Shown here piece by piece: positions 1,457 to 46,522 of a stretch of DNA of 64,000 nucleotides. How positions within the stretch are numbered: the first letter of the stretch is position 1; every line of letters starts with the position of its first letter. Below the pieces are notes generated by a model. It worked only from the letters and a program-made list of their open reading frames with translations. It was not told the DNA's origin and made no database searches. The DNA comes from Entophlyctis helioformis (lineage: Eukaryota > Chytridiomycota > Chytridiomycetes > Chytridiales > Chytriomycetaceae), in the NCBI GenBank assembly GCA_025526915.1, contig JAHLKH010000063.1, positions 62,001-126,000 of the forward strand, given 5' to 3'. The translations under genes and the position numbers were made by a program.

Positions 1457-1688
1457 GGATGTGAGAGTGAGAGTGAGAGTGCGAGAGTCTGGTGCTGATT
1501 GGCGGACACTGCGTGATGCCAGATCCAGTCACGTGTCTCTTCACGTGATCCGGCTGACATCTGGCTAGTTCGTGTTCGATTATCTGGATCGATCTGTCCG
1601 ACGAGACACATTCACGTTGGTGGCATGCTCGCAGATGCCGTCCACTCGGCGTCCATGCAGGCTGCTGACTTGAACCCGCCTCGTCAGA
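1457..1688. promoter_or_regulatory. Divergent promoter with two TCACGTG boxes
   Basis: This 232-bp gap lies between two ATGs pointing away from each other. It contains TCACGTGT at 1529-1536 and TCACGTGA at 1541-1548. The core CACGTG is the classic bHLH/E-box site (Cbf1 type in fungi). The same 8-mer occurs in the gaps at 8431 and 16709, which supports a regulatory role; binding itself is inferred. Confidence 0.45.
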
Positions 1689-2894: not shown

Positions 2895-3600
2895 GTCAAG
2901 CGGTCGGCAATTGTATTTATTCGCCGTGGGCTGTCTATTGGATGGCATTGCCAAAACGGCTTCATTGTCACTTGCCCAAATCCAGCCGAACGTGGGCAAG
3001 TGGCCAAGCAAGCCATCAGACGATAGCCTAGACATCGGCAGCATTCAAGGCATTTTACATACACTCATTGCTTTCATTCTTCGTTTCTGTCTGTCAAGTG
3101 AGTGCGTTGAGACGATGCCATTCTCAAGAGCGCAGGCGTACCGTTTGTCGCCCGTCCATTCATCGCCGCGCCGCGCAGCGTCGCGTCGCGTGTCTCCAGC
3201 CAACAGATTTGGCATGGTGGTTTGGCATGACGCATCGTCGTTTGAATGCGGGGCCCTTGATATGGACGGACGAGGCCAACGTGGCTTGCAAGCCCTCCTT
3301 TCCGATGGCATGCATCTGACTCGTTGTTTTCGACGTTGCCATCAATCTACGACAGACGATAGTCAAGGCGACTGCCATCCAAACAGGGCTACATTGCCAA
3401 CTGCGATTACCTCGTGGCCAGGATCTCCAAAATCACAACTCAGTAACAGCCGCCTCAGCGTCCATTGCATCGTCTACAGCAGCCACACGACTGTGGAACG
3501 GCGGCCGCAGCGAACCCATATAGATCTGCGCTAGCATCCAGCCATTACGGCGCGACAGCAACTCGGCGGCCTCTTCTCCCGCGTCCGCTTTCACGCACAC
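2895..3600. other. Intergenic, nothing recognised
   Basis: About 700 bp between the SCI1-like gene and the phosphatase gene. Long open frames here run antiparallel or in different frames and carry no family signal. A run of acacac repeats at 3595-3625 precedes the phosphatase reading frame. I see no RNA gene or mobile element. Confidence 0.4.
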
Positions 3601-3693
3601 ACATACACACACGCACACCACCACACCAGATACATACCATCCAAGCTGTCAGCCCCACACCACATCCCGGACCTATCGCGCCCAAAGTCCTCT

Positions 3694-3767
3694 TTGTCAC
3701 TTGCCGCCAAGGACGCCATCGTCCAAGAACTAAACCAACTCCCCCAGCTCCAGCAAAGACAGCAGCA

Positions 3768-3799
<32 letters not shown>

Positions 3800-5865
3800 A
3801 ACAGCAGCAGCATCAGCAGCATCAGCATCAGCACTCGCTTCATCTCCAGCAGCAGCTGCAGCCGCTTCACCAATCTGCCAACAGCTACAATTCGAGCCCA
3901 GGGTCTTCTCGCCACCCGCTTGCGCCTCTGCCATCGGTTTCCGTCGGTGCTCTCAACTCAAACAGCGCAAACACAGCAGCCCAGGCGTCTCTGTCCGCCG
4001 CCTCGTCCAAGGCGCACCTTTCGCCGCTCCCCCCGTCCGCCCACAGCCCCCACAGCCCCCACAGCCCGCACAGCACCCACATCTCGTCGTCGTCGTCTCC
4101 CACCCACAGCCAGCGCAACTCTATAGCAACCGGCCTGCAGTCGTCGGCCCCTGCTTTTCGCAACAGCGCCAACTTGAACAGCCCAAACATCTTTGCGCAA
4201 CTTGAGGCTGCCACTGCTGCCGCCGCCGCTGCCGCTGCTGTTGTCGCTGCTCCGTCCCTGCCTGTCTCCGCCTCCATCTCAACCTCTTCCCTGCCCGTCT
4301 CATCGCCGACCGCTGCCACCATGTCAAACACATTGCCGTCGGGCTCCGGATCCGGCAACAGCCCCAACTCGCCGTCGTCACCGCCCATGGCGTCACTGCC
4401 TGCCGTTCCAGCAGCGCCTTCTGGGAATGGGAATGGATCCGCCGCCGCATCCAGCCCAGCGTCCATTATCACCCAGGTCAAGCAGACGGCAGCTCCTGCC
4501 AACTCGGCCAAGTCGACCATAGAGGCCGCCAAGAAGCGTGCTGCCAAGCTGGAGGGTACGGACGGCTTGCGCCTACGATCGCCTTGACAGATGATGCACG
4601 GCTGCTTGCTAACCAAGCATCCTTGCCCTGTTCGTTGTCTTCCCGCTGGATTCTGGAAATCTGCCGCAATCTGCTGGCCAAACCTGTCTCCTGACGGTAA
4701 TTGTGGCTGTTGTTTGGCTATATGACCTGGGATCTGGCACTGGCCCTTGAACAACCATGAACGGTATTCAACGTTGCACACACGCACACGCACACATACA
4801 CAAACACACGCACACACACACGCACACACACACAGTCGCGACTAATGGCACACCGGCTGCCCCGTCATCAAGCCAAAAGGACGATGGATCCACCGCAAAT
4901 CACCCACCAGCCTCGGGAAAGACACCTCTCCCTCCTTCGCCGCACACCAATCTTGCTCTCACCGCCATGCAGACCGGCGCACAACAACCCGCGCCGATTG
5001 CGGTCATGGCTGCAAAGAGCAAGAAGCAAAAGGCTGGATCGGGCTCGTTTTGGTCGACGCTTTTCCCTTGCTGCTGCGCACCGATGGAAGACGAGCCGAC
5101 AGCTGTGCCCATGGCCCCGGTCGCAAAGCAAACGACGGTGGTTGCAAAGCCGTCCCCCATCAAAGCCAAGCCCGCTCAGCCAGAATCTCGAAAGTGGCTT
5201 CTTAAGCCGCTTGCGCCAGAGGACGCTGGCCGGAAGTGTCTGGTGCTGGATCTTGATGAAACGCTTGTACATAGCTCCTTCAAGCCCGTTGCAAAGGCAG
5301 ACTTTGTGATCCCTGTCGAGATTGACAAGACGATCCACAACGTGTACGTGCTCAAGCGGCCAGGTGTTGACACTTTTCTGCAGAGGCTTGGCCCGCAGTT
5401 TGAGGTCGTGGTCTTTACAGCAAGTTTGGCAAAGGTAAGAACGTGCTGCTTGCATACCGCATCTTCCTACAGTCTGTTGCGTCTTTTCGACTGTTGTGTG
5501 GGTACTCTGCTGCTGTCGCTTACACTCATCCTACCTTCGCCTGGATACCCAAGTATGCCGATCCTGTTCTAGATATGCTTGACAAACACAAGGTCATCAA
5601 ACATAGACTGTTTCGCGAGGCATGCATTCACCACAAGGGAAACTACGTCAAGGATTTGAGTTTGCTGGGACGGGATCTCAAGGACGTGATCATCATCGAC
5701 AACTCCCCATCGTGCTACATGTTCCATCCTGCAAACGCAATACCGATCTCGAGTTGGTTTGACGAGCCCAACGACACCGAGCTCCTCGATTTAATCCCGT
5801 TTCTGGAGGACCTCAAGCTCGTCGAAAACGTCACGGTGGTGCTGGACAACTCTCTTGACGACTGA
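3694..5865 (+). CDS. Psr1/SCP-type (FCP/NIF family) DXDXT protein phosphatase with polyQ N terminus
   Basis: Exons 3694-4555, 4836-5434 and 5554-5865 join in frame (about 590 codons). The catalytic domain carries the HAD/FCP signature [14 protein letters not shown], then [34 protein letters not shown] and [12 protein letters not shown], and ends with the usual [18 protein letters not shown]. This is the short CTD-phosphatase-like class that includes yeast Psr1/Psr2 and animal CTDSP. Upstream is a long low-complexity region with a polyQ/H tract (codons from about 3760) and a Cys cluster (FPCCCAP), reminiscent of palmitoylated Psr proteins at the plasma membrane. The true start is unresolved: the frame is open upstream of 3694 without an ATG, so a short 5' exon may be missing. 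The first in-frame ATG is at 4321. Confidence 0.85.
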
Positions 5866-6106
5866 TAGAGCGGCGATCTTTCCATGGCTCGGGCCGCGTT
5901 TTTGCCATGGCTGGTTGGCAAATGGCATTCACGTGCCCAGTCCAACTGTGCAAAGCAGGCCCATCCCTTCGTGCTGTCCCCTCCTGCCTCTCGATCCCAA
6001 TCTCCATCTCCCACCACCTGTCATCCAACATCCTTGGTCTCTCTCCCGTCCTCTGTCCACCTGTCTGTCTAGGCGCAATATTGAAAATCCAAAGAATAGC
6101 AGAGCA
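5866..6106. other. Short convergent intergenic gap
   Basis: 240 bp between the 3' ends of the phosphatase gene and RCL1. It is C/T-rich on the plus strand and presumably holds both 3' UTRs. No other feature is seen. Confidence 0.4.
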
Positions 6107-8359
6107 TCAAGTCGCCTTCTTGTTAATGTTGGCGAACCCAACGCCTACAGAGGCGAGCAAAACAGTGTGCGTCTCGGGATCGGGCGTAATCTTGAACGTC
6201 ACATCGAAAAACGTGCGCAGGTCGCGCAGGTATTGGACACTTGAAGTGGCGGTCGCCACACCAGCATCCACAACGGAATGTACGCATCGAATGTTGGCGC
6301 TTACGTCAGCAAAAGAGTCGTTCTAGGAACGGTTGGAAACATGTCTCCACCGCAAACCACCGCAAACTGCCGACATGCATCGCAACCAGACGAGAACTTA
6401 CGTGAACGGGGAAAGGCTTCCAAATCGCACTTTGCCAACGTCTTCGGGTCCAAGGGCGATAAAAAGCAAGTGGAGCCATTGGCTAAGTGTGTCAACCGAG
6501 CCACCACGCTTGATCTCGTGCAGCAAGAGACGCGCAACGCGGACGCCAAGGTCCTCGGGTGTCGGGAACGTGTAGTCGTTGACGAGCATGTCTGACACGG
6601 TCGGGCCAACGTCCACAATAGGCTTGGCAACAGCCATGGCATCACGGTTGCTCCCGGTGAGTTGCACTTGATTGAACGGATCCTGGCTGGCAGAGGGTGT
6701 CGTTTCTGTCACTTTCTTGCGAGGCTGATAAGCACACTCTGCAGAGAGCAGCGTGTTGGTTGTTGACTCTGCAACAAGCGAGAGTGCATAGCCAGGAGAC
6801 CTGCCACTCTCCTGGCCCTTGTAGACGTCGGTGTAGATGTAGACGTCGGGGATGTATCTCGTCAATAGACCGCGTGCGGCTTCAACAACGCGGTTGGCCA
6901 TCTGTGGCGACATGCGCGTTGCATACGCAATTCCTCGGATGCGCTTGATGTGACCAGCGTCTATAAACTGCAGCGGCTTGAGCTGTCTGACAATTGGACA
7001 GCGGAACACCACTTGGCCACCACCAAGTGGGGGTGCGCCGCGCTTTGCAATCTGCCAGAGTATTCGCGTTGCAGTTTGATAGTCAGCAGTTGCTTGTAAA
7101 CGCTGGTCGGATGCATTCAACCATGGCAGTCAACCCAGCCATCCACGAACCTTGAGTTCCAATCCATCCTCGATGCCAAAGCGCGAAAGTTGAGGAAGCA
7201 GCAGCGTGCGGATCAAGTCGGCCTGTGAGAGCAGAAGACGCGTCAGCAACGTGCCACAGCCGAGAGGTCTCCCCTGCGAGAATGCAGTCCGATAAAGGAC
7301 ACAAGCAGCAGAGATACATACAGAAATGTCCACGTTGTCGTTGGTGATTCCTGTCAATGTGAGCTCAACGGGGTGCTTTGCAAACGGAGAGAGAGCAATG
7401 ACTGCCTCCATAAAGTATCCGATCGAACGCGACGGCGGGCACTCGTGCTGGATCCTGCCACCAAAAATCGTTCCTGGGTGATATGTGACGCTTGTGCCTA
7501 CACGATGAAAAGCAAGCGACGTGAGTCGGCTGGCGCAACGAGCGGGATGATGCAGCAATTCTGCCATGAGGCATGGAAAGAAGGAGAAATCTATTCTCGT
7601 CTCGCGAGTGGCCAAGCCATGCCAGCCACGAAAAAGCATCGCACCAACTTACCCGTGTGGTTGATCTCGATCGTGCAGCCGTTTGTAAGCTTTTCGAGCA
7701 GACGAAGGAAGCTGGCCTCGTAGTCTGCAGAGTCACAGTGGTCATTGTGCGTGCGTGGAAACAACCAATGATCGTGTGAGTGGGATGAATGCTACCACGT
7801 CATCCGACAGATTGCAGTGGTCTCGGGAGCATGTGGGGCGGTGGAGAGATGGCTCTCCAAGGCAGGACGGCACTTCCATGGATCGGGCTCAACAAGGCCA
7901 GGCCAGGCCAGCTGGCTGATCAATGCCAATACACAGACAGTCTGGCAGCAGCACTTGACGATTGTCGCCATCGCATCTTCGCGACATGCCAACGCAAGCC
8001 AGGCCTGCAGTGCATTTGCTTCTGGCTCGAGCAACACACATCGTGCTCCGTATCCACCCTCGGACACCGGCCAAGACGTGCGTCATGCAACGGCCAGCCA
8101 GAACATGCTAAGCACGCCTGCTCGACAGCGACGGTTGGCCGGTTGAGAAGGCGGCTTTCCAGCAAACAAGTCGAGTGTGGGGCATGACCAAAAAAGTCAA
8201 CGAACCTGCGAGCCCAGGCTGCTCGTCATCGTCGGCGCGAATGTTTTCGATGCGGACAGACTTGCCACTCAGCGTGGACATGACCAGACGCTGGCGCAGA
8301 CAGGTGTGGCCTTCAAAGCGCAGCATGCGACGAGCCCCCGATGCCGTCACGGGCGCCAT
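6107..8359 (-). CDS. RCL1: RNA 3'-terminal phosphate cyclase-like protein Rcl1
   Basis: Six or so exons on the minus strand. Exon 1 starts MAPVTASGARRMLRFEGHTC and continues RQRLVMSTLSGKSVRIENIR. Later exons give DYEASFLRLLEKLTNGCTIE, the glycine-rich GTIFGG segment, ADLIRTLLLPQLSRFGIED, then KRGAPPLGGGQVVFRCP, IKRIRGIAYATRMSPQMANR, PDVYIYTDVYKG and GYALSLVAES. The last exon gives QYLRDLRTFFDVTFKI and ends VGFANINKKAT. This is the Rcl1 branch of the cyclase fold, a nucleolar SSU-processome factor working with Bms1 on 18S rRNA. The ATG at 8359 is preferred over an upstream in-frame GTG. The start is 125 bp from the divergent fusion gene. Confidence 0.92.
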
Positions 8360-8484
8360 TGGTTGTGAGCAGTTGGGTCGACGGAGTTGGACAACAAAAA
8401 TCGGGGCCAGAAAAAAGAAAATCTTGAGTGTCACGTGACTGGACGCGAGACTATTGTCAATGTGCGATTTCGAAAAATGCTTTT
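8360..8484. promoter_or_regulatory. Divergent promoter RCL1 / kinase-AAA-GAF-PDE gene
   Basis: Only 125 bp separate the two start codons. The gap contains a perfect palindrome TCACGTGA at 8431-8438, the same box as in the gap at 1457-1688 and upstream of MYG1. A bidirectional promoter is inferred from geometry. Confidence 0.45.
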
Positions 8485-11400
8485 ATGGCGGCCGCAATGT
8501 CGTCTCCCAGCGTTGTGACGAAAACCGCGCCTTGGCACAGCAAGGAACTCGCGGCACGACTTGTTACTGAGCGTGACAGTCTTGCTCTTTTGCAGTCGGC
8601 GAGCTTCGCCAAGCAGCACGCTGCTGCTGAGACGCTTTCGGCGACGTCTGCCAAGCGTTTCGAGAAGCAGGGGTCCGCATGGGGTGAAGATGATGCTCTT
8701 TCTTTCAAACGCCAAGATTACATTGGTTTCGCGCCGCCGCCGCCCCAGTTTTCACACGATCTTGTGCCTCGAGTCGTGCGGTGCGACGAGTCAGACAGCT
8801 TCATATCGGTCGTTCTGGAAGACTTTGGTGGCGCATCGCTGCAAGCCGAAATCAAGCGGCTTTCGCCAGGCCGCTTCGGCCTTGAAGATGTGCTTCGCAT
8901 CGGTGTGCAGTTGGCGGCCGCTGTCGACATTACTCACAAGGCAGGAATTGTCCACAACGACATTTGTCCGGCCAGTATTCAATTGCGCCATGCTGGGGTT
9001 GATCGCACTGTCGAAATCCAGCTATGCAACTATGGCCAGTCTGTCGTCCTCAACAGCACACGTGGGACAGTCTCAAGCATGCGGACACTTGAGCATTCGC
9101 AGTACATGTCACCAGGTATTCATCCGTCGCGCTCACTGGAAACTGCGGCATCGTGCCCATTTGCAATGCTTCTTTGCTGACGATGCTTACCATGGCCAGA
9201 GTTCTTTCAAGACCCGCAAGTGGGCTGTTCTTCAGGTACTTTGCATCCAGGACGCTGTGCGCGTCACAGAAAAAGTAACATGCATGGAAAGACTTGTGTT
9301 CCGTCGGTCTAGTCCTGTGGGAGTTGGCTGTTGGGGTCCAGCCGTATGACGCGCTCGATTTTGTGGTATGCTCATGGATGTGATAAGGCTTATGTTTTTC
9401 CGAGTCACTGACCGTCCCACCTGGCGACAGGGCGTGGCTGCCAGCAAGCTCACAAAGTCTCTTCCAAGCGCCATTGAGACAAATTCAATGGTTCCTCTGG
9501 TATTGTCCAAGATCATCCAAAAGGTGTCCAGAGACTCGTTTGGTGTCACGACACTGAGCTTCACGTGTGCAGTTGGCGTATGGAACAGTTTTAACACCAC
9601 GTTGCATTGGCAGCTGACTTCCAAAGGCAAGCAAGACAGGTACCAGACAGCTGCAGCTTTGCTTCAGGATCTGCAAGCTGCTGAATACAGGCTTCAAGAG
9701 TACAAAAGATCAAAGGGTAGTTTGTGCAAAGTATCCGATGACGAGTTTGTCGAAGCGATCAAGGGGTTCGACGTCCCTGCAAGCGCTGATAGTCCAACAA
9801 GCAAGACTATACTTGCACCATCCAGGCTGTTTGGACGTGACTCGCAAATGCAGCAGCTGTTTCAGGCATTCGAAAGGATTTCAAGCGGCGACTCGGCATT
9901 CGAAGTTGTCTTCCTTCAAGGCGAAAGGGGCAACGGGCACACATCTCTGTTCAAACGTCTTGAATCGCGCGTGTTGGATACGCGTGGACGGTTTGGTAAG
10001 TGACTGCCGTCGTAAAGTTTGATGCGTACATATTGACAATGCGTTCGACAGTTTCAGTGGATGTTACGCCGGACTCGATAAATCGACCGCTCCATGGTAT
10101 TGCGCTAGCCATGGAGGAATTGCTCATCTCAATGCTATGCGAGCCAAGCAGAGTCCTCGACACATGGACCAACAAGATTCTGTCGTCGTTTTCGCCAATC
10201 AGCCGATGGATCCTTGCTCAGTTGCTTCCCGACTTGCAAGTTTATCTGCCGAGCCTTGTTGCCGACTGTGTTGTTCACGAAGCTTCAGAGGCTGAAGTTT
10301 GCAAGTGTATTGCAGCCTTCCTTCAAACCTTTTCAAGCCGCAGCCAGCCCCTTGTTGTTTACATTGATGACATTGTAAGTCTATCCAATAAGTGCCCTCT
10401 GGAGCCATTTTCTGTTGGATTCGGATGGTTCCTAACATTTTCACATCACGAATGGTTCAGTCTATCCCGGGAACAACAGCGTTGATCGAGCACTTGTCGC
10501 ATGCAAACATCAATGGCTTACTGCTCGCAGGATCGATCTTCCAGCCGCAACTTCAAACAACGACGTCGATGCAGCTGGACAGGCTAAGAGAAGCACTTGC
10601 AAATCGATCGACAACAATCGCGCTCCCAAGCCTGGACTTTGGCGCAACCAAAATGCTTCTCAAGGACGCAATCACGCCCGCTACCGGCGAACTAGAGTCT
10701 CTTGCGCAACTAGTCATGGGGCACACACGCGGTGCACCATCAAGCGTGTGTAGCCTCCTTCAGTCTGGGCATCTCTTTGGGTTTTTCCAAACTGCAAACC
10801 AAGAGTGGTCATGGGATCACGCAAAGCTGGCAACGCATGCGGCGTCAGAGGCCAGTCTGGTCGAGTACATCATGTCACAGGTCGAAGGCCTGCAAGAGGA
10901 AGCAAAAGAGTTTCTCCAGCTGGCAGGTACGCATCACTGGTGCATTGTGGCTTGACGGCATGGTATGGTATGTCCAGTATGGCTCTCGATTGACCGAGAG
11001 CGTCAAAAAATGCATGCCACGCACAGCCTGCCATGGACTTGCGTTTGAAATCTCCCAACTTGACCTGCACTTTGCCGAATCCGGCATATCAACAACGGAT
11101 CTTGTGAATGCTGCAGAAAAGTCTGGATGCATCGTGCCTCTGCCCAACTCCAACCGCGAGCTTTTAGGCGACCTTTTCAAAATGACGCGACCAGGATCAG
11201 ACGCGTGCCAGTCCCTGCCCCTCAGCGTTGAGGTGGCTTGCCGTAGATATGCTGTAAGTATACCTGCTTTTCGGCTTGCTCATTGCGGAGGTGTTAATCA
11301 ATTGGTCAATGTATTCAGTTCCGCAGCAAGGCTGTGCATGACGCCGTCCTGAACTCCATGAGCGGCCAGTTACAACATGAGCTGCATCTGCGGATTGCCA

Positions 11401-34878: not shown

Positions 34879-34886
34879 TCGCAATG
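34879..34886. repeat. Left 8-bp target-site duplication (TCGCAATG) of the Fanzor transposon
   Basis: TCGCAATG occurs directly outside the left terminal inverted repeat and again directly outside the right one (46515-46522). A perfect 8-bp match in exactly these two places is the mark of a DNA-transposon insertion. Confidence 0.88.
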
Positions 34887-34909
34887 GGCCCGGTTCTCAT
34901 ACCATTACC
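34887..34909 (+). repeat. Left terminal inverted repeat of the Fanzor transposon
   Basis: Begins GGCCCGGTTCTCATA and ends ATTACC. It is the reverse complement of 46492-46514 at 19 of 23 positions; mismatches are at positions 7, 9, 10 and 17. Confidence 0.85.
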
Positions 34910-34910
34910 C

Positions 34911-35023
34911 CTGGTGGAATCGCTGTGATTGGTCAATCCTGGTGGAATCGCTGTGATTGGTCAATCCTGGTGGAATCGCTCTGATTGGTCAACTCCTGGT
35001 GGAATCGCTGTGATTGGTCGATC
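34911..35023 (+). repeat. Four subterminal tandem repeats of 28-29 bp
   Basis: Copies begin at 34911, 34939, 34967 and 34996. Each opens CTGGTGGAATCGCT and contains GATTGGTC; copies 1 and 2 are identical and copies 3 and 4 differ at one to three positions. Subterminal repeat arrays next to a terminal inverted repeat are often transposase-binding sites; GATTGG is also an inverted CCAAT box. There is no spacer between copies. Confidence 0.85.
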
Positions 35024-35081
35024 TTGAGCCTGAGGATTGCCGGCACTTGTGCCTCGCTTGCTCCAGAGGTGACACTGCGCG

Positions 35082-36162
35082 ATGCGAGCACAGCAGCAAC
35101 GCGCCATGCCAGATCCAGACGCTGCTGCACTTGCCGCCCAACTGCACACAAGCAACAACGAGCCAAACGACAACGACGACAGCAACGCAGGCGACGGCAC
35201 GGATATGGGACAACACTCGCTTGCTGGACGAGTCCTTCAGGGGAGACGGCGAGGCTCACTGCTCAAGGCGGCATGCAGCAGGCAGTCCAGCAGGCAGTCC
35301 AGCAGAGCAGCGTGGTCGTGGCCGTCTGAGAGGCGTGCCCAACAAGGCGGGCGGACAGAAGGCAGGCTGCAGACAGGCAAGCAGGTGCGTTGACACGCTG
35401 TCTGTCCAGGCATGCTCCATTGCCCGTTGACGACGACGGCACAGCAGTCTGACGGCCGTGTCTGTGTGGTCTTGGCACTGACTGCGTGCATGTCTGATGG
35501 CTCCAATCAGCAAGGGACGTCGGCAAGGCGGCCGTGAACAGGGCGATCTGGTTGTTGTTCAAGAGGACAGCGAGAGCATTGGCATTGCAGGACGAAGCTG
35601 CCTGGTGCTTTCCAACTGCGACATGGGATGCAGCAGCAGCGATGAGCAGCCACTGAGACGTGCTCAATGGACCGATCCTTGGAGTTGGCTGCAGGAACTG
35701 CTTGCTGGACAGCTGGATTGGCATGCCGACTTGGATGCCAAACAAGACAGTCGCAGCACACTCGGCGAACAGCACACTCGACGACACTGATCCAGACGAG
35801 ACTGGTGAGGAGGACGCGAGTGCTGGCAGGCGTGTCTGGCCACATTGCACTTGGTGCGATGGCATCTTGGATGCGACCCACTGACCAGCAACTGGAGTGG
35901 CCAGACAGACAGACCAAGCACTCTCGATCCATTCAACAACCACAATGACGATGATGGCGAAGACCCTGACGATCACAGTCTTGCATGCACTGTGCTTATT
36001 GACGAGGACGATCCAGAGCTGAGCGGCGATGCAGGCAGTGCGCCAACGGCCAACCTGTCCATGGACCAGCTGGCCAGTCAGGCAACACCAACTGCATCGC
36101 ACTGGGTCACAATGAAGACGCATATCAGGACGCTTGTTGGATGCAGTGGGGACATTGACTGA
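35082..36162 (+). other. Undefined transposon reading-frame fragments with AT-hook-like and acidic segments
   Basis: No single gene model works here, but plus-strand frames look protein-like. From ATG 35082: MPDPDAAALAAQLHTSNNEP. Near 35310 in another frame: RGRGRLRGVPNKAGG, like an AT-hook. From 35497: SKGRRQGGREQGDLVVVQED. At about 35775: STLDDTDPDETGEEDAS. From 35940 to a stop at 36162: DDDGEDPDDHSLACTVLIDE. They may be exons of one acidic DNA-binding accessory protein, or a decayed gene. The antiparallel open frame at 35263-36204 mirrors these acidic repeats and is not favoured. 36163-36496 holds nothing recognisable. Confidence 0.3.
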
Positions 36163-38109
36163 GAAGACGACACTCGGAGAGACGCTTGCTGCAATGCGGC
36201 TCATGACACGCAGAGTGATGCTGCACAGTGCATGTCGAGCTGCGCACTGGGTGGCATCACATCAATGACTGTGCCAGCAACACACGACCACATCTTGAAC
36301 GCCTGGCTGTTGGCTGTGCTCGCTGCTCGCTGCTCCCTCTATGGCTGTTGGACAGTGGGCGGCAAGTGCCAGACTGCCCGCTCTCTATCCACTCGCTCTC
36401 TGTCTGTGTCAGCAATGAAAGTTCAACTCCGCCAGACGCTCTGATTCTTTTCTCGTAAACACAGATACAGACACCCCACGCACCAGCAGCACCAGCATGA
36501 CTTTGGTAGGCCTGCTGAGAGCCTTCAAGGTACGCCGTGCCGTCTGCGACCACACCGGCAAGACTTTTGGCCATGCTGTGCAGCGTGTGCTCCACAGCAT
36601 GCTGCCACAACAGCCGCCTCTGCAACAGCCGCCGCCGCAACAGCAGACTGCAACAGCCGCAACAACAACAGCCGCAACCACCCAGTTCATCAGCGGGATG
36701 CTGCACGTCGACTTCCTTAGCATCTTTCACCCAGCATTAGTCGCAACAGCCGCCATCAGCCAGCCAGGCTCCAAGGCCGGCTGGAAAGCCATCATCCAGC
36801 CGGCCTTTGAGCAGTTCATGGCGTCGCTTGGCGGCGGCCACACCATCCGCTTCCATGTGGATGGCCAGCTTGGCGACCTGGGCCTCAAGCTGGTCCACAA
36901 CAGCCGCACCAACAACATGCTGCATGCGGCAGCCAAGGTCTTGCAGCATGCATTCCAGCGTCAGGAAGGTCGCCACTCTGGATCACTTTCAAAGTAAGAT
37001 CGCCGCTCTATACTGTGTGGTTGCCTTACTGACCATTGTCTGCTGTTGGCCATCAAGGACAGAGAAGCACGCCCTCCACCGCTTCTTCTGTCTGACGCAG
37101 AGCGATAAGAAGGCGATCTATGAGGCTCTCTCAGAGCTGGCTGGATCCAAGGAGGAGTGCACAGTCTGCCCATGCGACTATGAGGCAGACGTGTGCATTG
37201 CCTGCCGTGTTCGCAAGTCCAGGTTAGATCGCCTTGCATTCTTCTGCTGTAGTTGATGGCTCACAGTCTGCATTCTGTGACAGTGACCAGCCGATCATTG
37301 TCATTGCCAATGACTCTGATCTGGTGGCACATTGTGCTGGGCACTGTGCGGTCATTTTGACGCACTTGGAGCATGGGCAGCTTGTGCAGATGCGATCCTA
37401 CAACCATGGTGGGCTTGCCACCATGGCATCTGTCTTGGGTGTGTGCGACTTTGCTGGAGCATGCCAGCTGGTCGCTGCACTGTCCAGGACAGATTATTTT
37501 GGCCGCAATGACCATGGTGAGTTGCCGCGCCTGTTTTGTAGTATCTGCCATCACTCACATGCCATTCTTTGTCTACATGCACGATTCTGCTTGCATTCCC
37601 TGCCAGGAATCGCCGCCGCGGTCAAGTTTGTCAATGCGCGGTTTGATGCCAAGGTCGAAGAGCTCAACATCAAGGCGGCCCAGCTCTGCGCGATCCTCGA
37701 GACTCCTAATGAGGCCAAGGCGTTCATGGATGGCGTCAGGGACGCGTACATCGAGGAGCTGGTCAAGAATGGTGATGAGAACCTCGTGCAGGCATTCAAG
37801 AACGCATTTGAAGTCTTTGTCAACCGGAATGAGGTTGGGGCCTCTGCTGGTGCAATCACAGCGCCGATCGTCGCGAGGTATGTTTATTCTTGAAGGATGT
37901 CACGGACATGATGGCATTGACGCGTTTGAATGCCTTGCACAGATCTGAGCCTCAAGCCGACCACACCAACCACATGGATGTCAACACGACTCCATCTGTT
38001 GGAATGAAGTATGAATGCATGGAATCTGTGGCGTTTCTGGCAAAACTGACACTGAGTTTCTGTTTCTGATGCTGCGATCTCATTATTGTGCAGGTGCTTG
38101 ACGGATGGA

Positions 38110-38114
38110 TGCTG
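38110..38114. repeat. Left 5-bp target duplication (TGCTG) of nested LTR element
   Basis: TGCTG directly precedes the 5' LTR and recurs at 40396-40400 directly after the 3' LTR. Five base pairs is the usual duplication made by LTR-element integrases. Confidence 0.85.
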
Positions 38115-38342
38115 TGTAACGAGCCGCAATGTGTCTCTCATTGTGCACTGATGCCGCGTGCCAATGGCTGCATGGGCATTATTGGAACGCGCCTTTTGCT
38201 AGCGGTCGATGCACCAGACTTGCCCCAGCTGTCGTCTTGTGCATCCAACCGCAGGTACCATCCATCTCCCCTGCCTGTCTCTGCTACTGGTCTGACAATG
38301 AATATCTTGTGCATCCAACCGCAGTCCTTCCGTCCCCTCACA
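38115..38342 (+). repeat. 5' LTR (228 bp)
   Basis: Starts TGTAACGAGCC and ends CCCCTCACA. Inside is a duplicated 16-bp phrase CTTGTGCATCCAACCG (about 38237 and 38307), and the LTR adds VTSRNVSLIVH-stop to any frame entering from the left. Confidence 0.88.
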
Positions 38343-38392
38343 CGACAGCTCTCATACAAGTAGCGACCGACAACCGACTGAGCAGCAACGCC

Positions 38393-40204
38393 ATGCCCTC
38401 TGGCGGCCCAGGCCAGCCAGGCGGCATCAACCAGCAGCAGCAGCACATCACAGCTGCAACCACTCACCAGCAGCAGCAGCACACCACTGCCGCCACCAAC
38501 AAACAGATCCAGCAGCTTCAGGCGACCGCCAGCAGCCTCCGGCAGGAGCTGCGCCTGGCCCGCCAGCAGCTGCGCACCACCAGACTCGACCATGACGACT
38601 GCCTGATCGCCATCCAGCAGCTGACAGCCTGGCGCACAGAGGCATTTGCAGAGATGCACATCATCCGCCGCGCCTGCTTCAGCCCTCCGACGCCAGCCGG
38701 CCGCCTCCGCTACGAGCAGGCTGCCGCAGCCTTGCGGGAGGGCGTGGCCAGGCTGGACAGCCTCCAGCTGGAGCGGCAGCAGCTCGAGCAGACGATCGGC
38801 GACCTGCGTGCAACCATCCAGCACAAACAGGCCGCCATCAACTGCACTGAGCAGAAAATCCATTCGTGGCTTTTCGTTCTGATCGATTCCAACAGCAGCA
38901 GCAGCAGCAGCAACACCAGCCGCGGCTGCAGCACCACCGACCTCGCCACCAGTTCCACCTGCACCGGCCCCAGCCATGTGCAGCCCCAACCGCTCTGCAT
39001 GCAGCAGCTGCCCGACCAGCCCGTCCACAGCCCCAGCCGCTCTGGTCCTGGCAGCACGCCTGGCCTGACGCCGCGGCATCAGCAGCATCGTTCTCCCGTT
39101 CCGACCGCCACTGCTCGGGCCTCGCCCCAGCAGCACCGACCGACCCAGCCGCCTCTGGCACCAGCCAGCCCGGCCAGCAGGGTCGAGCACCCGTCCGTCC
39201 CGTACCCGTCCGTCCCGTACCCGTCCGTCCCGTCCCCGTCTGTCCCGCTCTGCAGCCCAGTCGCCAGTGCTGCAGGCTCGCCCATCCAGCCGCCTGCAGC
39301 ACGCGCCGATTGGCCAACGCGATCTGATTGGTCAACGCGTGCCAATCGGTCAGCAGCAGCTGATTGGTCGGCACCAACCGATTGGTCAGCCGCGTCTGAT
39401 TGGTCGGCATCAGCCGATCCATCGCCGATGCCAATCGATCTGCCATCTGCACCAGCAACAACAGCCGCTCTGCCCAGCCTCTCGACTGAGCAGCACTCAG
39501 CCGACACCGCCGCACCTGCCCTTGCCACGCAGCCGCACCGCCTGTCGGCACACTCGCCCTCGCACCCGTCTCAACTGTCTGCAACGCTCCATCTGCCTCA
39601 CCCGTCTCCCGTACTGTCAACTGAACTGACTGAGCTGCATCATCTGCAGCCAGTACAACAACTGTCAACTGCATCAACTGAACCGTCAACTGCATCGACT
39701 GAGCTGCACCAGCTGCAGCCAGAACACCAACCGTCACCCGCTCACCCGTCTGATCTGCCTTTGCAGATGCTGCCGACCCAGCCGCATCAGCAATCGCAGC
39801 CTGTCCACTGCTCAACCGACACTGCCTGCATTTGGCCGGCTACCAACTCAGCAGCGTCAACTACTGTCACCGCAACTGATCGACGCGGGCCAGATACATC
39901 TCTGTGCTCTGCCCACCACCTGTCTGGATCGCCATTGCATGGGATTGGCCTGTCTGCTTGCGCCATCCTGTCTGTTCATCTGGATTCAGCTGCTCCAACG
40001 CGACCACCACCAGAGCCGCCAGATCCCCCAGATCTGCCTCCACAGTCGCATTGGATGCCTGCTGGTCTTTGTCACAGCAGCCGCCTGGCTGCCACACCAC
40101 CTGTGATCCACATTGCATCTCTCTCTTGTGGCGATCAATCCATGAAGGATCTCTCGTCAAGGGGGGCTGTAACGAGCCGCAATGTGTCTCTCATTGTGCA
40201 CTGA
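38393..40204 (+). CDS. Coiled-coil, Ser/Pro/Gln-rich protein of the LTR element (gag-like position)
   Basis: One uninterrupted frame of 603 codons starts 50 bp after the 5' LTR (MPSGGPGQPGGINQQQQH) and ends inside the 3' LTR. Residues 30-170 are a predicted coiled coil (QIQQLQATASSLRQELRLAR; LERQQLEQTIGDLRATIQHK). The rest is Pro/Ser/Gln/His-rich. It includes a PYPSV repeat at about 39200-39240 and a DWS-type repeat (SDWSTRANRSAAADWSAPTD) encoded by recurring GATTGGTC at 39310-39420. There is no zinc knuckle, protease or polymerase motif. Its position suggests a Gag-like or captured protein; the function is not known. Confidence 0.6.
   Translation: MPSGGPGQPGGINQQQQHITAATTHQQQQHTTAATNKQIQQLQATASSLRQELRLARQQLRTTRLDHDDCLIAIQQLTAWRTEAFAEMHIIRRACFSPPTPAGRLRYEQAAAALREGVARLDSLQLERQQLEQTIGDLRATIQHKQAAINCTEQKIHSWLFVLIDSNSSSSSSNTSRGCSTTDLATSSTCTGPSHVQPQPLCMQQLPDQPVHSPSRSGPGSTPGLTPRHQQHRSPVPTATARASPQQHRPTQPPLAPASPASRVEHPSVPYPSVPYPSVPSPSVPLCSPVASAAGSPIQPPAARADWPTRSDWSTRANRSAAADWSAPTDWSAASDWSASADPSPMPIDLPSAPATTAALPSLSTEQHSADTAAPALATQPHRLSAHSPSHPSQLSATLHLPHPSPVLSTELTELHHLQPVQQLSTASTEPSTASTELHQLQPEHQPSPAHPSDLPLQMLPTQPHQQSQPVHCSTDTACIWPATNSAASTTVTATDRRGPDTSLCSAHHLSGSPLHGIGLSACAILSVHLDSAAPTRPPPEPPDPPDLPPQSHWMPAGLCHSSRLAATPPVIHIASLSCGDQSMKDLSSRGAVTSRNVSLIVH
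40159..40166 (+). other. Polypurine tract of the LTR element
   Basis: AAGGGGGG lies one base upstream of the 3' LTR (TGTAAC at 40168), where plus-strand DNA synthesis is primed in LTR retrotransposons. Confidence 0.7.
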
Positions 40205-40395
40205 TGCCGTGTGCCAATGGCTGCATGGGCATTATTGGAACGCGCCTTTTGCCAGCAGTCGATGCACCAGACTTGCCCCAGCTGTCGTCTTGTGCATCCA
40301 ACCGCAGGTACCCTCCATCTCCCCTGCCTGTCTCTGCTACTGGTCTGACAATGAATATCTTGTGCATCCAACCGCAGTCCTTCTGTCCCCTCACA
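40168..40395 (+). repeat. 3' LTR (228 bp)
   Basis: Same length and ends as 38115-38342. Differences include T for C near 40209, CCAGCAG for CTAGCGG near 40253, C for A near 40313 and T for C near 40384. It is followed by TGCTG. Confidence 0.88.
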
Positions 40396-40400
40396 TGCTG
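40396..40400. repeat. Right 5-bp target duplication (TGCTG) of nested LTR element
   Basis: Matches 38110-38114 exactly. The FEN/XPG-like frame continues from the next base. Confidence 0.85.
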
Positions 40401-42489
40401 CTTGAGCCATACTGCACAGCAGCAGCAGCAGCAGGCTGAGAATGGTGTCCAGCTTGTCCACTTGACACGTGGCAGGGTCGAGCAGCTTGTCAGCAGCACT
40501 GTTGGCAGCAGGCGGTTGGATGCTGCCTTCATTGAGGTGAAGGGTTGCCATGTGGCACTCGACACCATCATCAGGTGCACAGTCAACCGCCTTGCGAGCA
40601 GCTACGATGCTGTCACGCGTCGCGACATCCTGGCGGCCATCTGCAAGGCAGCGAGTGCCCAGCTGCTGCAGATTGCCAGCGAGCAGTTTCTTGGAGCAGA
40701 TGGCATTTTTAAGCTCCTCCCAGCAGATGAGCCAATCTATCGCGCATTGGTATGTTTGCATGGCTTGAATGCATGCTGTTGCTATCACACCACGTGCATT
40801 TGCTGATTTTGAATGCGGCTGACTTGATCCATTGCTTCTGGACAGAACGCAGCAATGAGAATGCAGATGCAGCTCGACAAGATTGCCAATCCGCCATGCG
40901 CATCCCACCGGCATACATCCACTCCCAGTAGGTGTTGATTGCATTGAAATGATTCAACAGCATCCACTCACAGATCCATTTGTGTTGAATGCATAGTACT
41001 GGACACAGAGACGCAGAAAGTCGAGTACCACGGCAGGATGACCACGCGAGTTGCACCGCGATCCACTGTCGCTGCTATCCACGACAAGGCCTCAGCCTGG
41101 CTGTATTTCCTGGAGCACCCCATAGGTCCACATCCAGAAAACGCCAAACTGCCGACACTCATCAATCAGCGCCAAAAGGCCGTCGCCCTGCTGCAGTCCA
41201 TCATTGAGCAAAGTGCAGTGCGTCTCGACTTCCACTGACTGCATGTGCATGGAATGATTTGGCGCGATTGCTCACCATCCCACTCCACAGGTTGGTCCTC
41301 CTCCACCGCCGCCCAAGCCACCACGGTTGTCCAACAACATCTTCGCAGCACTGGCATGCTCCAAGACCTTTCCTGTTGGCGATCTTGCCGACACTGAGAC
41401 GACGGTGAGTTTGGTGCACTATTGGCGATTATGGCTGTGTTTGCTGCACTTGGAATGGCCGCCTGATGCTGCATCCAACCGTCACAGGCGCCATTCCAAT
41501 TCACGGCAGCCAAGCGGGCTGCGCACACAAAGGAGCGTGCCAAGAAAAAAGAGAAGGCCACACTACAGGAGATCATCAGAGAGAACAAGAAGAAGTCAGG
41601 CCTGCATGCTCGCAAGGCTGGAACTGTTGGCAAGAAGCAGGCGTACGCGACATATGGCATGTCATGTGCCTTGAATGTGCTTGCTGACACGTGCGCCATG
41701 CCACAGATGGGTTGCTGGCAGTCAAGTGGCAACTCGTCAGAAGCTTGCAAAGCTCGGCCGCATGATTGCGATGCCAGTCATGACACTTGCCGCGGCCACC
41801 CATCCCAAAGGACAGCCAAGACCTAAAGGCAATGCACACAGCCGCCCTGAGCAGATTGTCAAAATGGCGGTATGGGGTTTGATCGGCATGCTGCTCTGTT
41901 TGCTTGGCTTTGTGTATGCTGACTTGTGTGGTATGCAGGAGATGCAGTCATGCGATCTCGCAAACACCAAGTTTTTTGGGCCCCAAACCAAGACACCACT
42001 CGCCGAACAGACACCCAGTTCAATCAGCCACGACACCACCCTCACAGTCTACTATTTCACGGCCGGCTTGTGGCGTGCTGCCCTTGCCTTGATCGGCGCC
42101 ATGGTCGCGGATCTGGTCAAGCTGGATGCAGACGCGCCTCTGCCTCTGGAGTACTGTGTCCTGGAGGCAAGCCAAGGCAAGCTGACGCAGTATTACTATG
42201 TCAACCCCAAGGACTTTGACGAGGACGAGAGCGCGACGCTCTTGTCAGGTGGATGCATTCACAAGCAGGGCATCATTGTTTGGCACATGTACGGCACCGG
42301 CCCGCACAGCAGCGACACAAAGATCCCTCGCTATGGCAGCTTGGTGACTCTCGACAGTGACACGGCTCTCAAGATCTGCGCCTTTGATACTGCCAAGATT
42401 GCCAAGCAATCCAACATGCATTGTTAGATTATTGTCTGTTGGCTTTTCCAATTCTGTGTCTCGCGACTCTCCCTTTCCCTTGCTGTTCT

Positions 42490-42633
42490 ATTCAATTGCC
42501 TGTCACAGACGCTGTCGCCTGACAGCTCTTCTTCCCTTTGTCTGTGCCTCAGGTACTTCCTAGAATACACATTCAATTGCCTGTCACAGACGCTGTCGCC
42601 TGACAGCTCTTCTTCCCTTTGTCTGTGCCTCAG
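42490..42633 (+). repeat. 63-bp direct duplication upstream of the Fanzor gene
   Basis: Two identical 63-bp copies (42490-42552 and 42571-42633) begin ATTCAATTGCCTGTC and end GTCTGTGCCTCAG, 81 bp apart. They fill the gap between the FEN/XPG-like stop (42427) and the Fanzor ATG (42681). They are pyrimidine-rich and may be part of the Fanzor promoter or leader. Confidence 0.88.
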
Positions 42634-42680
42634 ACCCGCAGTTCCCTGTGCCTTCGCTGCACTCGAGCAGGAACTCTGAC

Positions 42681-44720
42681 ATGCATGGCGACCTCGACGA
42701 TCAGGACAAGCAGAACGAGCACGACGAGCAGGACGAGCAGGACGAGCAGGACGAGCAGGACGAGCACGATGAGCACGATGAGCACAACGAGCAGGACGAC
42801 CATGATGTGCACAATCAGCCGACAGCAGCGGCCAGCAGCACCGGCGCTTCATCTTCAGCCGTCCAACCGCCACCACCACCACCAGCAGCAGCAGTTCCAT
42901 CAGCAAATGAGCTGCTTACGGCCCTCACCAGCAGTATATCAGGTGGAGGCGGTGCTGTGGACATGCTGCTGCGCCATCTTGGCTATGTCCTGGCGGACAG
43001 CATGATGGTGCAGCCGTATGCACCCAAGCATGTCATCCACTCCTGGATCGTTACAGTCATGCAAATGACGATCCATCGCACCTGGACGCGGAGGGTGCTG
43101 CAAACCAACGCAGCCAAGCTGCAGGATGACACGGTACGGATGGACATGATGCAGACGTGCACGATGCTGATGGACATGTCACTGATTGATGCAATGCAGC
43201 AGGCGGCCACGGCACACAGCGACACGTTCCAGAAAGACGCGCGGCAAGCAGCCATGATGGACATGGCACAGATGGACACGATGCGAGCAGCCATGATGGA
43301 TGCGACGCAGCAGACGGTGACAATCCAGGCCGACGCGATCCTGTCAGCCGTGGTGCAGGCAGATGCAGAGCTGTCGGCCTTGATGCACACAAGTGCGCAG
43401 ACGGCAGACGCTGTGCACGCGGGCACTATGGAGGCTGTCTTGCCCTACAGGCTTGATGACAGCCTTTGCGCGGATGCAAGGAGTGACATTTACAGCAATC
43501 TGGCCAGGGATGTGTGTGGCATGCTTGCGCGGCACTACATCTCTAGCCAGTCTGAGCTGGCCGTCACTGCGGCCCTCAAGCTGATGCCCAGTGCATCCAT
43601 TGAGGACGTGAGAGTGTGGATTGCGGCACTTTTCAAGACCGCCAAGGCTGCCAAGGCCGCCAAGGCTGCTGCTGCCAAGGCTGCCAAGGACGCTACACCA
43701 CCGGCGATCGAGGACGCCACACCGCTGGCCACTTTGGACACTGCTCCTCCCACGTCAAGTCTCAAGCGGGGTCGGTCCACCTCTTCGTCAGCCAACAAGG
43801 GCGGCAGGCCCAAGAAGCGACGGGGCCGGAAGGCAGCCACCACCAAGGACGCGGCATCCAGCTCTTCCTCGGCCACTGAGGACAGCAGTATTGATACAGT
43901 CCCGCAAGAGCTGCACGAGCTCAAGACGCTGGTGCCTGATGTGTCTCGGTCAGAGATCGTGATCTTTTACGAGCTGTCCAAGCTTGCTGGCACGACAAAC
44001 AAGCTGTGCCCGCAAGCAGCCAGCCGCGATCCCTTCATCCTCATCACTGAGACAACGCTCTTTTGGGCGGTGATGGGGAGTAGTGATGATCGCATCCGTG
44101 GCGAGCAAAGTGCTGCTTTGGCATACTTGCGACTGCAGCTCCTTGCTGTACTCAGTAGGTCGCACTTGTTTATGCCATGTCTACATGATATGATGCTGAC
44201 ACTCCACTTTTATCCAAGACTACCAAAAAGCCAGCTTGGGTCTCGCATCACCTAACACGACGATCAAGAAGGCGTTCAGCAATAGCAAGGAGCTCTGTAT
44301 CCTCAACATACTCCTTCCCGGCCTCCGCCCCAAGAAAGGCCGCTATCAGACGCCAGACGAGGCCGACAAGGAGGTGTTTGAGCAGGTCCAAGCAAATGAC
44401 GCAGTCATTGCTGATGCGATGCAACTGGCTGAGCACGAGGGTCTGGTTGGCAAGGAGCGCCAGGAGTTTATAGACGCCGTGATCGATGGTCTTCCTCCTG
44501 CAATTCCAAGCAAACCGACCGCGGTGGGCAGCTTCCGGACGGACGGATACAGCATCTTTCAATTGGCGCTGGACTATCGCACAGACCGTCCAGAGTCGCC
44601 TCGCAGTATGTGGCGTGCTTGAATGCTTTGGTGCACACATTGGTTCTGACTGCCGCCTTGATCTGCATGCTCCAACATGGCATCTTTAGGCGAGCAGCCC
44701 AGCCTTGCTGATGGCATGCC

Positions 44721-44753
<33 letters not shown>

Positions 44754-46317
44754 GGCTGATGATGGGCATGATGGGCATGATGGGCATGATCACTTGGATG
44801 GCGAATGTGAGTTGCTGTGCCAATCCAGACGCACACTTGGCACCAACACCGACTGACATGCCATCCACAGCCGCCGATCCAGCCGACCCATCAGCCACCA
44901 AGCCAAAAGCGACCAATCCTGTAAGCCACTTGCCTGCCAACCTCGCGCATTGGTGCACATGCATTGCACATTCCTCACTCATGTCATGGCATGACAGGGC
45001 AAGCTCAGCTTCTACGCCTCGCAGCGATTGCTCAACATTGTCAAAGCCAACAAGTTGTTCACCAACAAGGGCTACCGGTTTGTGCGTATTGTCGGCATTG
45101 ATTGGGGCGAGCGGTACATGTATGGCGCGTCCAGCATGCTGGTGGATCTGGCAACCTTCACCTATACCCTCGAGTCCAACTACGTGCTCTCCTCTGGCAT
45201 GGCACGAGCCGAGCACAGCCTTCAGCGGTGGTATGCATGCAATGACTCTGCCACGCGCACTCTTGACCAGATCAACTCACAGCAACTGCCTCTTGTGCCA
45301 GGCTCAACAATCGATATGCCAAGGCAGCCGACATCCAGGCGGCCATTGCATTCAAGACAGCAAAGCATGCCGATCCAAATGTCAAGCCTGGCGAGAGAGC
45401 CTTTTGGGATCTGCGCTGCCATGCGTACTGCACGCCATTCCTGAATGCACGGGTACGTTTTCTCTGTTTCTGTATGCCCATTGCCATGACCGCCATACTG
45501 CTTGATCGCCTGCTGATTGCATTGAGTGCCATGGCATGGCATTCCACAGAAGGTCAAGGCCGAGCGTTTTCCCATGCGCAGCAACAGCACGTCTGATCAC
45601 GGACATGCTCTTGAAGGCATCATGAAGCTGGCAGGATCGACCACTGGCAAGCGCGCATCAGCTGCATCTCAAGGCTGCTGTGACGAGCCAACAGAGAAGG
45701 ACATTCCCGTTGTGTGGGCATTTGGCATCGACTTTACAGGCCAAGGTGGCCGGCACGCTGTGTTTGAGAGGTTTCTCATCAGGCATCTGCGGTCGTCTGG
45801 ATATGCCTATGTGCGTCTGATGCCATCCATCCATCCATCTGTGCACCAACTGACCACACAATCATGCACACACACACACATACAGATCTACCGCTGCAAT
45901 GAGAACCTGACCAGCCAGATGTGCCCGCAGTGCAAGCAGCGGATCCCATACAAGAACCGCACCAACCTGCGACGCTACGAGTGCACAGACTGCGATACCG
46001 TCTACCACCGAGACGTGCTTGGAGCCACCAACATCGGGATGGTCGCACTGTGGCATCTGCTCTTTGGGCAACGGCCGCTCTACTTGACACACACGCCACC
46101 TGACAGCAATCCAGCCACGCAAGAGTACCTTGCAGACATCAAGGCAACTCATCATGACATCCAGTGGCGTGCACAACATCACATCATGCTGCTCGCGACA
46201 CCGCCTGATCAGCCTGTCGTCCAGCAGCCTCCGTCACCTGATCTGCTTCCCTTCAAGTCGCATGTGGCCTCATGGGATCAGATCATGCTGCCATGTCTGC
46301 CAACAACAACACTTTGA
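42681..46317 (+). CDS. Fanzor (eukaryotic TnpB-like RNA-guided endonuclease), 1034 residues
   Basis: Eight exons (42681-44154, 44219-44605, 44690-44806, 44871-44920, 44998-45230, 45302-45452, 45550-45810, 45886-46317) join to exactly 1035 codons including the stop. The C-terminal nuclease shows RuvC-I (RIVGIDWGERYMYG, D711), a RuvC-II-like segment (VVWAFGIDFTGQGGRHAVFE, candidate E877), a TnpB-type zinc ribbon (CPQC at 904-907, CTDC at 924-927, preceded by NENLTSQM) and RuvC-III (HRDVLGATNIG, D934). Fanzors cut DNA guided by an omega-RNA encoded at the element end. The long N terminus holds an acidic DEQ/DEH repeat, polyP, a Met/Gln-rich helical region, and a nuclear-localisation/AT-hook-like GGRPKKRRGRKA (about residues 375-386). 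A poly-Asp/His-Gly-Asp stretch lies at about 635-658. All catalytic positions and splice sites look intact. Confidence 0.9.
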
Positions 46318-46491
46318 ATCGGGGCACCTCCCGATCGACCTAACGGGTCACTTCAATAGAAGGTGAGACCCTTGTTGGATGTGCCTCGCCCGCCTGTCGT
46401 CGCATGCTCGTTGCTGACTCGAACCTTCAATCACGTGATATGTGGGCTTGCATCCGTCGCCTCTTGCGACGATTATAACTCCAAAATCCTT
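46318..46491 (+). ncRNA. Candidate omega-RNA scaffold at the transposon right end
   Basis: Known Fanzor/TnpB guide RNAs come from the segment just 3' of the nuclease gene up to the element end. Here the 174 bp between the stop and the right inverted repeat hold stacked hairpins: ATCGGG/CCCGAT (46318-46323 with 46330-46335), GACC/GGTC (46337-46340 with 46346-46349), TCACTTC/GAAGGTGA (46348-46366, one bulge, alternative to the previous one) and CGTCGC/GCGACG (46455-46460 with 46466-46471). A palindrome ATCACGTGAT is at 46431-46440. If the model holds, the guide would be flanking sequence beyond 46514. Transcription is not shown by the sequence. Confidence 0.35.
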
Positions 46492-46514
46492 GGTAATTGT
46501 ATGAATATCGGGCC
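46492..46514 (-). repeat. Right terminal inverted repeat of the Fanzor transposon
   Basis: Ends GAATATCGGGCC; its reverse complement begins GGCCCGATATTCATA and ends ATTACC, matching the left end at 19 of 23 positions. Confidence 0.85.
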
Positions 46515-46522
46515 TCGCAATG
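46515..46522. repeat. Right 8-bp target-site duplication (TCGCAATG)
   Basis: Identical to 34879-34886 and abutting the right inverted repeat. The host sequence resumes here about 60 bp from the stop of the actin-related gene. Confidence 0.88.

Follow-up and report, generated by a model that had tools for sequence, protein, structure and literature searches.

Which kind of mobile element is the Fanzor-carrying insertion at positions 34887-46514 of a 64,000-nucleotide stretch of Entophlyctis helioformis DNA, and by which enzyme is it moved? The stretch, in the following called the window, corresponds to C63:62001-126000 of the assembly, in which C numbers denote contigs. It is still unsettled which role Fanzors play for the transposons that carry them. 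As outlined below, the window element belongs to a real high-copy family of DNA transposons with terminal inverted repeats (TIRs) in this chytrid, whose core is a FEN/XPG-like nuclease region followed, in fixed order, by a Fanzor region. The family combines many copies in one genome with precise ends, a second nuclease, short derivatives mobilised in trans and a sharp mosaic boundary, and it allows a direct test of whether cutting by the Fanzor drives copying, or gene conversion, from one element to another. Since no transposase is recognisable in it, its mode of jumping remains a testable question; we give a probability of roughly 60% to the reading that this TIR family with its FEN/XPG (PIN)-like and Fanzor genes is moved by a transposase supplied in trans, in a staggered-cut reaction with 8-bp target duplication.

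Ends of the element and copies in the genome

The element is delimited by the following features:

34879-34886, no strand: left target duplication, 8 bp, TCGCAATG, from the junction read
34887-34909, plus strand: left 23-bp TIR; 84 left-type genome sites with at most 3 mismatches, 0 for the reversed-pattern control
46492-46514, minus strand: right 23-bp TIR; 170 genome sites with at most 3 mismatches, 0 for the control
46515-46522, no strand: right target duplication, 8 bp, TCGCAATG, from the junction read

The octamer TCGCAATG is identical outside the element on both sides, and the left end GGCCCGGTTCTCATACCATTACC matches its inverted partner at 19 of 23 bases. A search of the two 700-bp gap regions for inverted ends of at least 17/23 with identical flanking octamers gave a single occurrence, and three shuffles gave none. 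The preliminary description had claimed exactly these repeats with a perfect 8-bp duplication, and reading both junctions confirmed the coordinates. Its precise 11,628-bp element stood with respect to the ends; 2281 bp and 260 bp of this length are later insertions bounded by or consisting of long terminal repeats (LTRs), and the transposon itself measures about 9.1 kb.

The genome searched comprises 29.6 Mb in 482 contigs. The left-TIR pattern (at most 3 mismatches) gave 86 sites, two of which were right-type and were removed to leave the 84 listed above; for pairing, the first 100 of the 170 right-TIR-like sites were used, and left and right ends were paired if they lay on one contig within 30 kb. 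The 41 resulting pairs have sizes of about 1 kb (2 pairs), 2.2 kb (1), 7.2-8.0 kb (14), 8.8-9.8 kb (13), 13.9-15.9 kb (9) and 20.6 kb (1), in addition to the window copy. The junctions of all 41 pairs were read, and the 8-bp duplication was 8/8 in 13 pairs, 7/8 in 11 and lower in 17. At least 7/8 was thus reached by 24 of 41 true pairs vs 11 of 1640 mispaired junctions, which served as the control. After removal of shared left flanks these 24 pairs represent 21 distinct sites, whose octamers are A-rich with C preferred first and G last. Copies elsewhere in the genome that share these ends and have 8-bp duplications of their own, which the preliminary description had suggested looking for, therefore exist, and inverted ends with a duplication of fixed length, as in a TIR DNA transposon, are found at these 21 sites plus C109 (see below). 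The assembly is redundant: flanks are common to C35/C436, C67/C297 and C18/C272, and over 1.5 kb the right flanks of C60, C36, C408 and C122 show 98-100% identity, so that copy counts do not equal insertion counts.

Variant right ends GGCCCGACATTCAAACAATTACC mark a second subfamily (L126, L127, L129-L133, L135, L137), for which no left end was found. These right ends continue beyond GGGCC into ATTTGCCGGCGGTTTGCCGGC..., with up to about 48 bp shared before they diverge; this stretch belongs either to the right end, which would then be longer, or to a target common to these copies. The inner motif is inverted in L126. Furthermore, C294:14311-19782 and C407:6487-11970 each carry a pair of left ends that face outward at a distance of about 5.4 kb, and are probably one region present twice.

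Anatomy of the element and the two gene regions

The general plan of the copies consists of a TIR, four subterminal repeats, the FEN/XPG-like gene, the intron-rich Fanzor gene and a conserved 198-nt tail which ends in the second TIR. A stretch of about 1.3 kb between the subterminal repeats and the first gene is absent from the compact copy L121. Inside the window copy the features are:

34907-35026, plus strand: subterminal repeats (family D7), four units of 28-29 nt each, recurring in other copies
36497-38114, plus strand: FEN/XPG (PIN)-like gene, 5' part, splice sites carried over from copy L120 and the public model P0001
38115-40395, plus strand: nested LTR element, 2281 bp, not part of the transposon proper, with 228-bp LTRs at 38115-38342 and 40168-40395 and the duplication TGCTG
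40401-40749, plus strand: FEN/XPG-like gene, remainder of the interrupted exon
42422-42681, plus strand: nested solo LTR, 260 bp, with the 5-bp duplication TGCAT, breaking the reading frame ahead of the Fanzor core
42900-44147, plus strand: conserved coding region FA upstream of the Fanzor catalytic exons; ratio of nonsynonymous to synonymous substitution rates (dN/dS) 0.17-0.48 in 15 pairs
44219-46316, plus strand: Fanzor catalytic exons FB-FG and stop (PF07282, E 2.7e-11; guided_TnpB, E 8.9e-7)
46317-46514, plus strand: conserved non-coding right end, ending in the TIR, aligned in 25 copies

Comparison with the 9057-bp copy L120 revealed two additional pieces in the window copy, 38115-40395 and 42422-42681. 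Out of 11,628 bp, roughly 2.5 kb thus come from later retroelements, and the transposon proper resembles L120 in length. The window copy itself is broken, because the LTR element splits an exon of the first gene and the solo LTR interrupts the frame before the Fanzor core. The LTRs of the 2281-bp element are identical at 223 of 228 positions (97.8%); its 693-aa frame showed no Pfam domain above the cut-off, and it is probably a non-autonomous LTR retroelement.

The exons of the first gene lie at 36497-36993, 37058-37222, 37284-37516, 37607-37877 and 37943-38008, followed by the exon which is cut at 38115. Its six GT-AG introns measure 61-96 nt, and P0001 agrees at all five introns it covers. 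Five proteins from diverged copies share the invariant motifs HVDG, EAD-x-CIA, D-x-D and a later D, which is the order expected for the acidic active-site motifs of FEN/XPG nucleases. Sub-threshold Pfam hits to three PIN-type families, XPG_I_2 (E 0.013), 5_3_exonuc_N (0.027) and NYN_YacP (0.066) overlap at P0001 residues 207-292. Motifs and profile hits together support the FEN/XPG-type assignment made for this protein in the preliminary description. The gene is under purifying selection, with dN/dS values of 0.27-0.34 (10 pairs, 5 copies); the C151 copy (e151) has no match to it and was outside this count, and every other copy read through has the gene. Homologues were found only in E. helioformis, four proteins with a one-sequence query and six with an alignment query (7995 and 7996 candidates scored). 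Among viral contigs neither this protein nor the Fanzor had a match. Beyond the FEN/XPG-like part the exon phases are traceable in L120, but in L121 a stop is met there, and the two nuclease regions may form one gene or two. The public protein P0004 (BC831DRAFT_552065), which fuses the start of this gene to retroelement-like sequence, is probably an annotation chimera across a nested insertion.

The Fanzor catalytic exons are FB 44219-44605, FC 44690-44806, FD 44998-45230, FE 45302-45452, FF 45550-45810 and FG 45886-46314, with GIDWGERY in FD and the zinc ribbon and RD in FG. Our exon model does not keep the phase across the FC/FD junction, and the guided_TnpB match lies far below the cut-off of that model. 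According to PMC3627910, the Fanzor (TnpB-like) motif reads D-X(125-275)-[TS][TS]XX-C4 zinc finger-X(5-50)-RD. The window copy shows GID and TSQM-CPQC...CTDC-(5)-RD in this order, with about 187 residues from D to TS in the spliced model. A word-limited search for Fanzor homologues with a capped candidate set returned none at E <= 1, which is weak evidence of absence since the same search missed the host's own proteins too. Fanzor2 proteins reside in IS607-type elements, to which the TIRs and duplications of the present family do not suit.

Searches of the own genome with the two proteins (83 of 560 candidates scored for the first gene and 145 of 540 for the Fanzor, all following counts referring to listed matches) gave at least 49 FEN/XPG-like and at least 136 Fanzor loci. 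A Fanzor lies downstream on the same strand, 4.4-12.2 kb away, at at least 33 of the 49 listed FEN/XPG-like loci; the other 16 have a Fanzor upstream (1), a Fanzor on the opposite strand (1) or none among the matches listed within 16 kb (14). Conversely, a listed FEN/XPG-like match precedes at least 33 of the 136 Fanzor loci, which leaves room for Fanzor copies without this gene. The pair in fixed order is the core of the element.

Movement in trans and mosaic structure

Short copies indicate which parts of the element are needed in cis. A 1044-bp copy on C109 is flanked by the perfect duplication CAAAGCAG, and copies of 989 and 1052 bp on C35 and C436 represent one other site with a 7/8 duplication. 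All three share a deletion joining element position ~280 to 10821, which leaves derivatives of about 1 kb that have lost the whole of the first gene and the greater part of the Fanzor. Since such a unit is found at two sites with duplications, it was moved in trans and neither gene is needed in cis. The sequence required in cis is bounded by these copies to at most ~285 bp on the left and ~808 bp on the right. The D7 subterminal repeats on the left may be transposase-binding sites.

Comparison in 500-bp bins with the window copy showed 87-94% identity over the left ~1.5 kb in e12 (the C12 copy) and e151, only 64-77% or unalignable sequence in the middle of e12, e151, L121 and L126, and 75-94% in the same four copies from 44887 onward. 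Intron identity in the first gene is 38-70% when L120 is compared with L121 or L126 and 68-82% with e12, whereas all 10 pairs have 84-100% in the last four introns of the Fanzor. Because the Fanzor introns are far more alike than those of the first gene, a recent exchange or conversion of the right part is likely, and the synonymous divergence (dS) agrees, with up to ~1.9 in the first gene and 0.11-0.52 in the Fanzor catalytic exons. By these comparisons the elements are mosaics, in which the right end and the catalytic half of the Fanzor were likely exchanged or converted between old subfamilies. The boundary is sharp and lies inside the Fanzor gene. Across subfamilies, intron conservation in the Fanzor 3' half (44606-45885) equals or exceeds that of the intervening exons. 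In 10 of 10 pairs both introns next to exon FD are better conserved than FD itself, for which we offer no explanation.

The strongly conserved 198-nt tail (46317-46514) is a candidate scaffold of a guide RNA (omegaRNA). It contains a predicted stem between CCCGAT and ATCGGG of the TIR, each pair of which is kept in 24-25 of 25 copies; a stem involving the TIR is expected if the TIR forms part of the scaffold, as indicated in PMC10711439. An Rfam search with the right end returned one match, far below the cut-off.

Search for a transposase

The ORFs (open reading frames) scanned in the copies read contained no recognisable transposase family, in line with the preliminary description, which had seen no standard transposase; in the left 1.5 kb, in the linker and in L126, no ORF scanned had a Pfam match above the cut-off. 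Two groups of copies were considered as autonomous elements and rejected. Among the long copies of 13.9-15.9 kb, two of nine pairs (e12 and e151) were read: the surplus of e151 is a Ty3-like retroelement with reverse transcriptase, integrase, chromo domains and protease. The GGCCCGACATTCAAACAATTACC-ended variants were rejected as autonomous partner, since L126, the one of them read over 9.9 kb, has the same two gene regions. As for the nested sequences themselves, the Ty3-like retroelement (L124-L125) sits inside the Fanzor element of C151. One insertion in e12 is bounded by 264-bp repeats (99%) related to the window solo LTR, and such related repeats also occur in e151.

Genome-wide, profiles for KDZ, hAT, MULE, DDE_Tnp_1 and IS1595 were applied. 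KDZ was the only profile to match the genome, with four matches on three contigs. PF10551 (MULE/MuDR), PF01609 (DDE_Tnp_1, IS4-type) and PF12762 (IS1595, Merlin) gave no match in the own genome, compared with matches in 3, 9 and 1 of 14 control genomes, respectively. The hAT dimerisation domain PF05699 had no genome match either, the control being equally without any.

Proposed mode of movement and its alternatives

TIRs together with a fixed 8-bp duplication are the usual mark of a DDE transposase, and several DDE groups make 8-bp duplications. In the mode of movement which we favour, such an enzyme, supplied in trans, would bind the TIRs and the subterminal repeats, and its staggered cut would yield the 8-bp duplication. 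The right end and its flank would be transcribed into an RNA guiding the Fanzor, which may cut sites without the element; repair from an occupied copy could then restore or spread the element and homogenise its right end, while the FEN/XPG-like nuclease might trim or resolve repair intermediates.

Several points weigh against this proposal. No transposase was recognised, and the type of reaction is deduced from the duplication. No aligned duplication of at least 7/8 is present in 17 of the 41 pairs; three of these have another perfect duplication (11 bp in C219, and 8 and 9 bp offset by two bases in C5:128510 and C193), and 14 have no perfect 6-12 bp duplication near the ends. The assembly contained no empty allele of the window insertion. 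Besides the window copy five copies were read through, and positions 7810-10750 of e12 (2.9 kb, L123-L122) match neither the window copy nor, in the three ORFs scanned, any Pfam family, so that an unrecognised transposase may exist there. The product of the first gene is divergent and is called FEN/XPG (PIN)-like on the basis of motifs and sub-threshold hits; its sequence matched no solved structure (PDB), and AlphaFold models were too poor to use, with mean pLDDT (predicted local distance difference test) values of 37 and 41. Finally, a compensatory change was observed in 1 of 34 predicted pairs of the right end, i.e. covariation is weak and the RNA structure is not proven.

A less probable, though serious, alternative is that the family is a non-autonomous passenger of KDZ elements (Zisupton group), a KDZ transposase encoded elsewhere in the genome recognising the ends and moving the Fanzor elements. 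The 8-bp duplication found here is the one reported for Zisupton in PMC12730594, and KDZ is, as described, the sole transposase profile with matches in this genome. However, KDZ is low-copy, the copies scanned have no KDZ domain, and no KDZ element with the same ends was found: the end comparison covers one of the KDZ loci, L140 (C334:2500-11500, 9 kb; the others are on C271 and C396), in which neither TIR has a counterpart with 8 or fewer mismatches and which has no notable similarity to the element copies compared. With L140 this chytrid genome has a gene for a KDZ transposase, the transposon ends of which were not found.

It is improbable that the family is a relative of AcademX with a transposase diverged beyond recognition and an altered duplication length. 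The nuclease of AcademX is of the XPG type, and a FEN/XPG-like gene is present in every copy read through except e151. AcademX, an Academ transposon, likewise is a DNA transposon carrying a nuclease gene, but its duplications are 3-4 bp and those of AcademH 9-10 bp in contrast to the 8 bp observed here, and Fanzor goes unmentioned in the available part of the source (PMC10045372). No Academ transposase was recognised in the copies; the distinction was drawn by description, and no Academ sequence was compared.

Equally improbable, in our view, is a movement without any DDE transposase: after an RNA-guided cut by the Fanzor at a selected site, the ends would be processed by the FEN/PIN-like enzyme, and the element would be put in place by repair that uses an occupied copy as template. 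The 8-bp duplications and homogenised right ends would then have been left by repair copying, which we regard as just as doubtful. A truly absent transposase, if true, would be a far larger finding. Two nuclease regions keeping their order, selection on the FEN/XPG-like gene in all five copies compared and the lack of a recognised transposase are in line with it. The fixed 8-bp duplication with TIRs speaks for a DDE enzyme instead, derivatives without both functions in cis move, which is compatible with any trans-acting enzyme, and FEN enzymes are flap nucleases which, to our knowledge, are not known to integrate DNA. That there is no transposon at all, and that a chance inverted match in duplicated contigs of a single locus was taken for one, is practically refuted despite the redundant contigs by the 21 distinct sites with at least 7/8, the excess of true over mispaired duplications (24/41 vs 11/1640) and the separate site on C109.

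Comparison with known Fanzor elements

There is precedent for Fanzor elements that lack a transposase, namely SPu-1 of Spizellomyces (PMC10432273) and SfAV (PMC10711439). Accordingly, the undescribed transposon group suggested by the preliminary description is not established, as the deciding transposase was not found; a new group is possible.

Closest is the Fanzor1 element SPu-1 of Spizellomyces punctatus, which shares the chytrid host, a Fanzor between TIRs, many copies, short copies retaining the ends without the Fanzor ORF and the lack of a transposase between the repeats (PMC3627910, PMC10432273). SPu-1 itself is about 2.1 kb long, with a single ORF, TIRs of 33 bp and TA as its putative duplication (PMC3627910, PMC10432273); members of the present family measure ~9 kb, have TIRs of 23 bp and duplications of 8 bp, and contain introns as well as a second nuclease region. 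The Fanzor elements of IS4 type from Ectocarpus and from its virus (ESvi-1B) have TIRs and a perfect 8-bp duplication as well; ESvi-1B differs in being single-copy and encoding an IS4-type transposase (PMC3627910), a type (DDE_Tnp_1) not found in the present genome. The MuDR-like ROr-4, PBl-3 and MCi-4 are also fungal, with TIRs and no encoded transposase, and differ, compared by description only, in their 9-bp duplications and in TIRs resembling known MuDR (PMC3627910).

A full-text literature search gave no paper on Fanzor and Entophlyctis, most subscription papers being beyond reach, and paired searches of Fanzor, XPG, flap endonuclease and Rad2 gave none with Fanzor among the 20 of 753 papers listed. 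As far as these searches reach, the pairing of a Fanzor with another nuclease, in fixed order and together with TIRs and 8-bp duplications, is a new combination.

Insertion site in the window

The left neighbour of the element has a minus-strand ATG at 34818, which agrees with the 61-bp spacing given in the preliminary description. Its HAUS3 label was left unconfirmed, as the two left-flank ORFs scanned had no Pfam match. The right neighbour is an actin-family gene (PF00022, E 1.3e-23).

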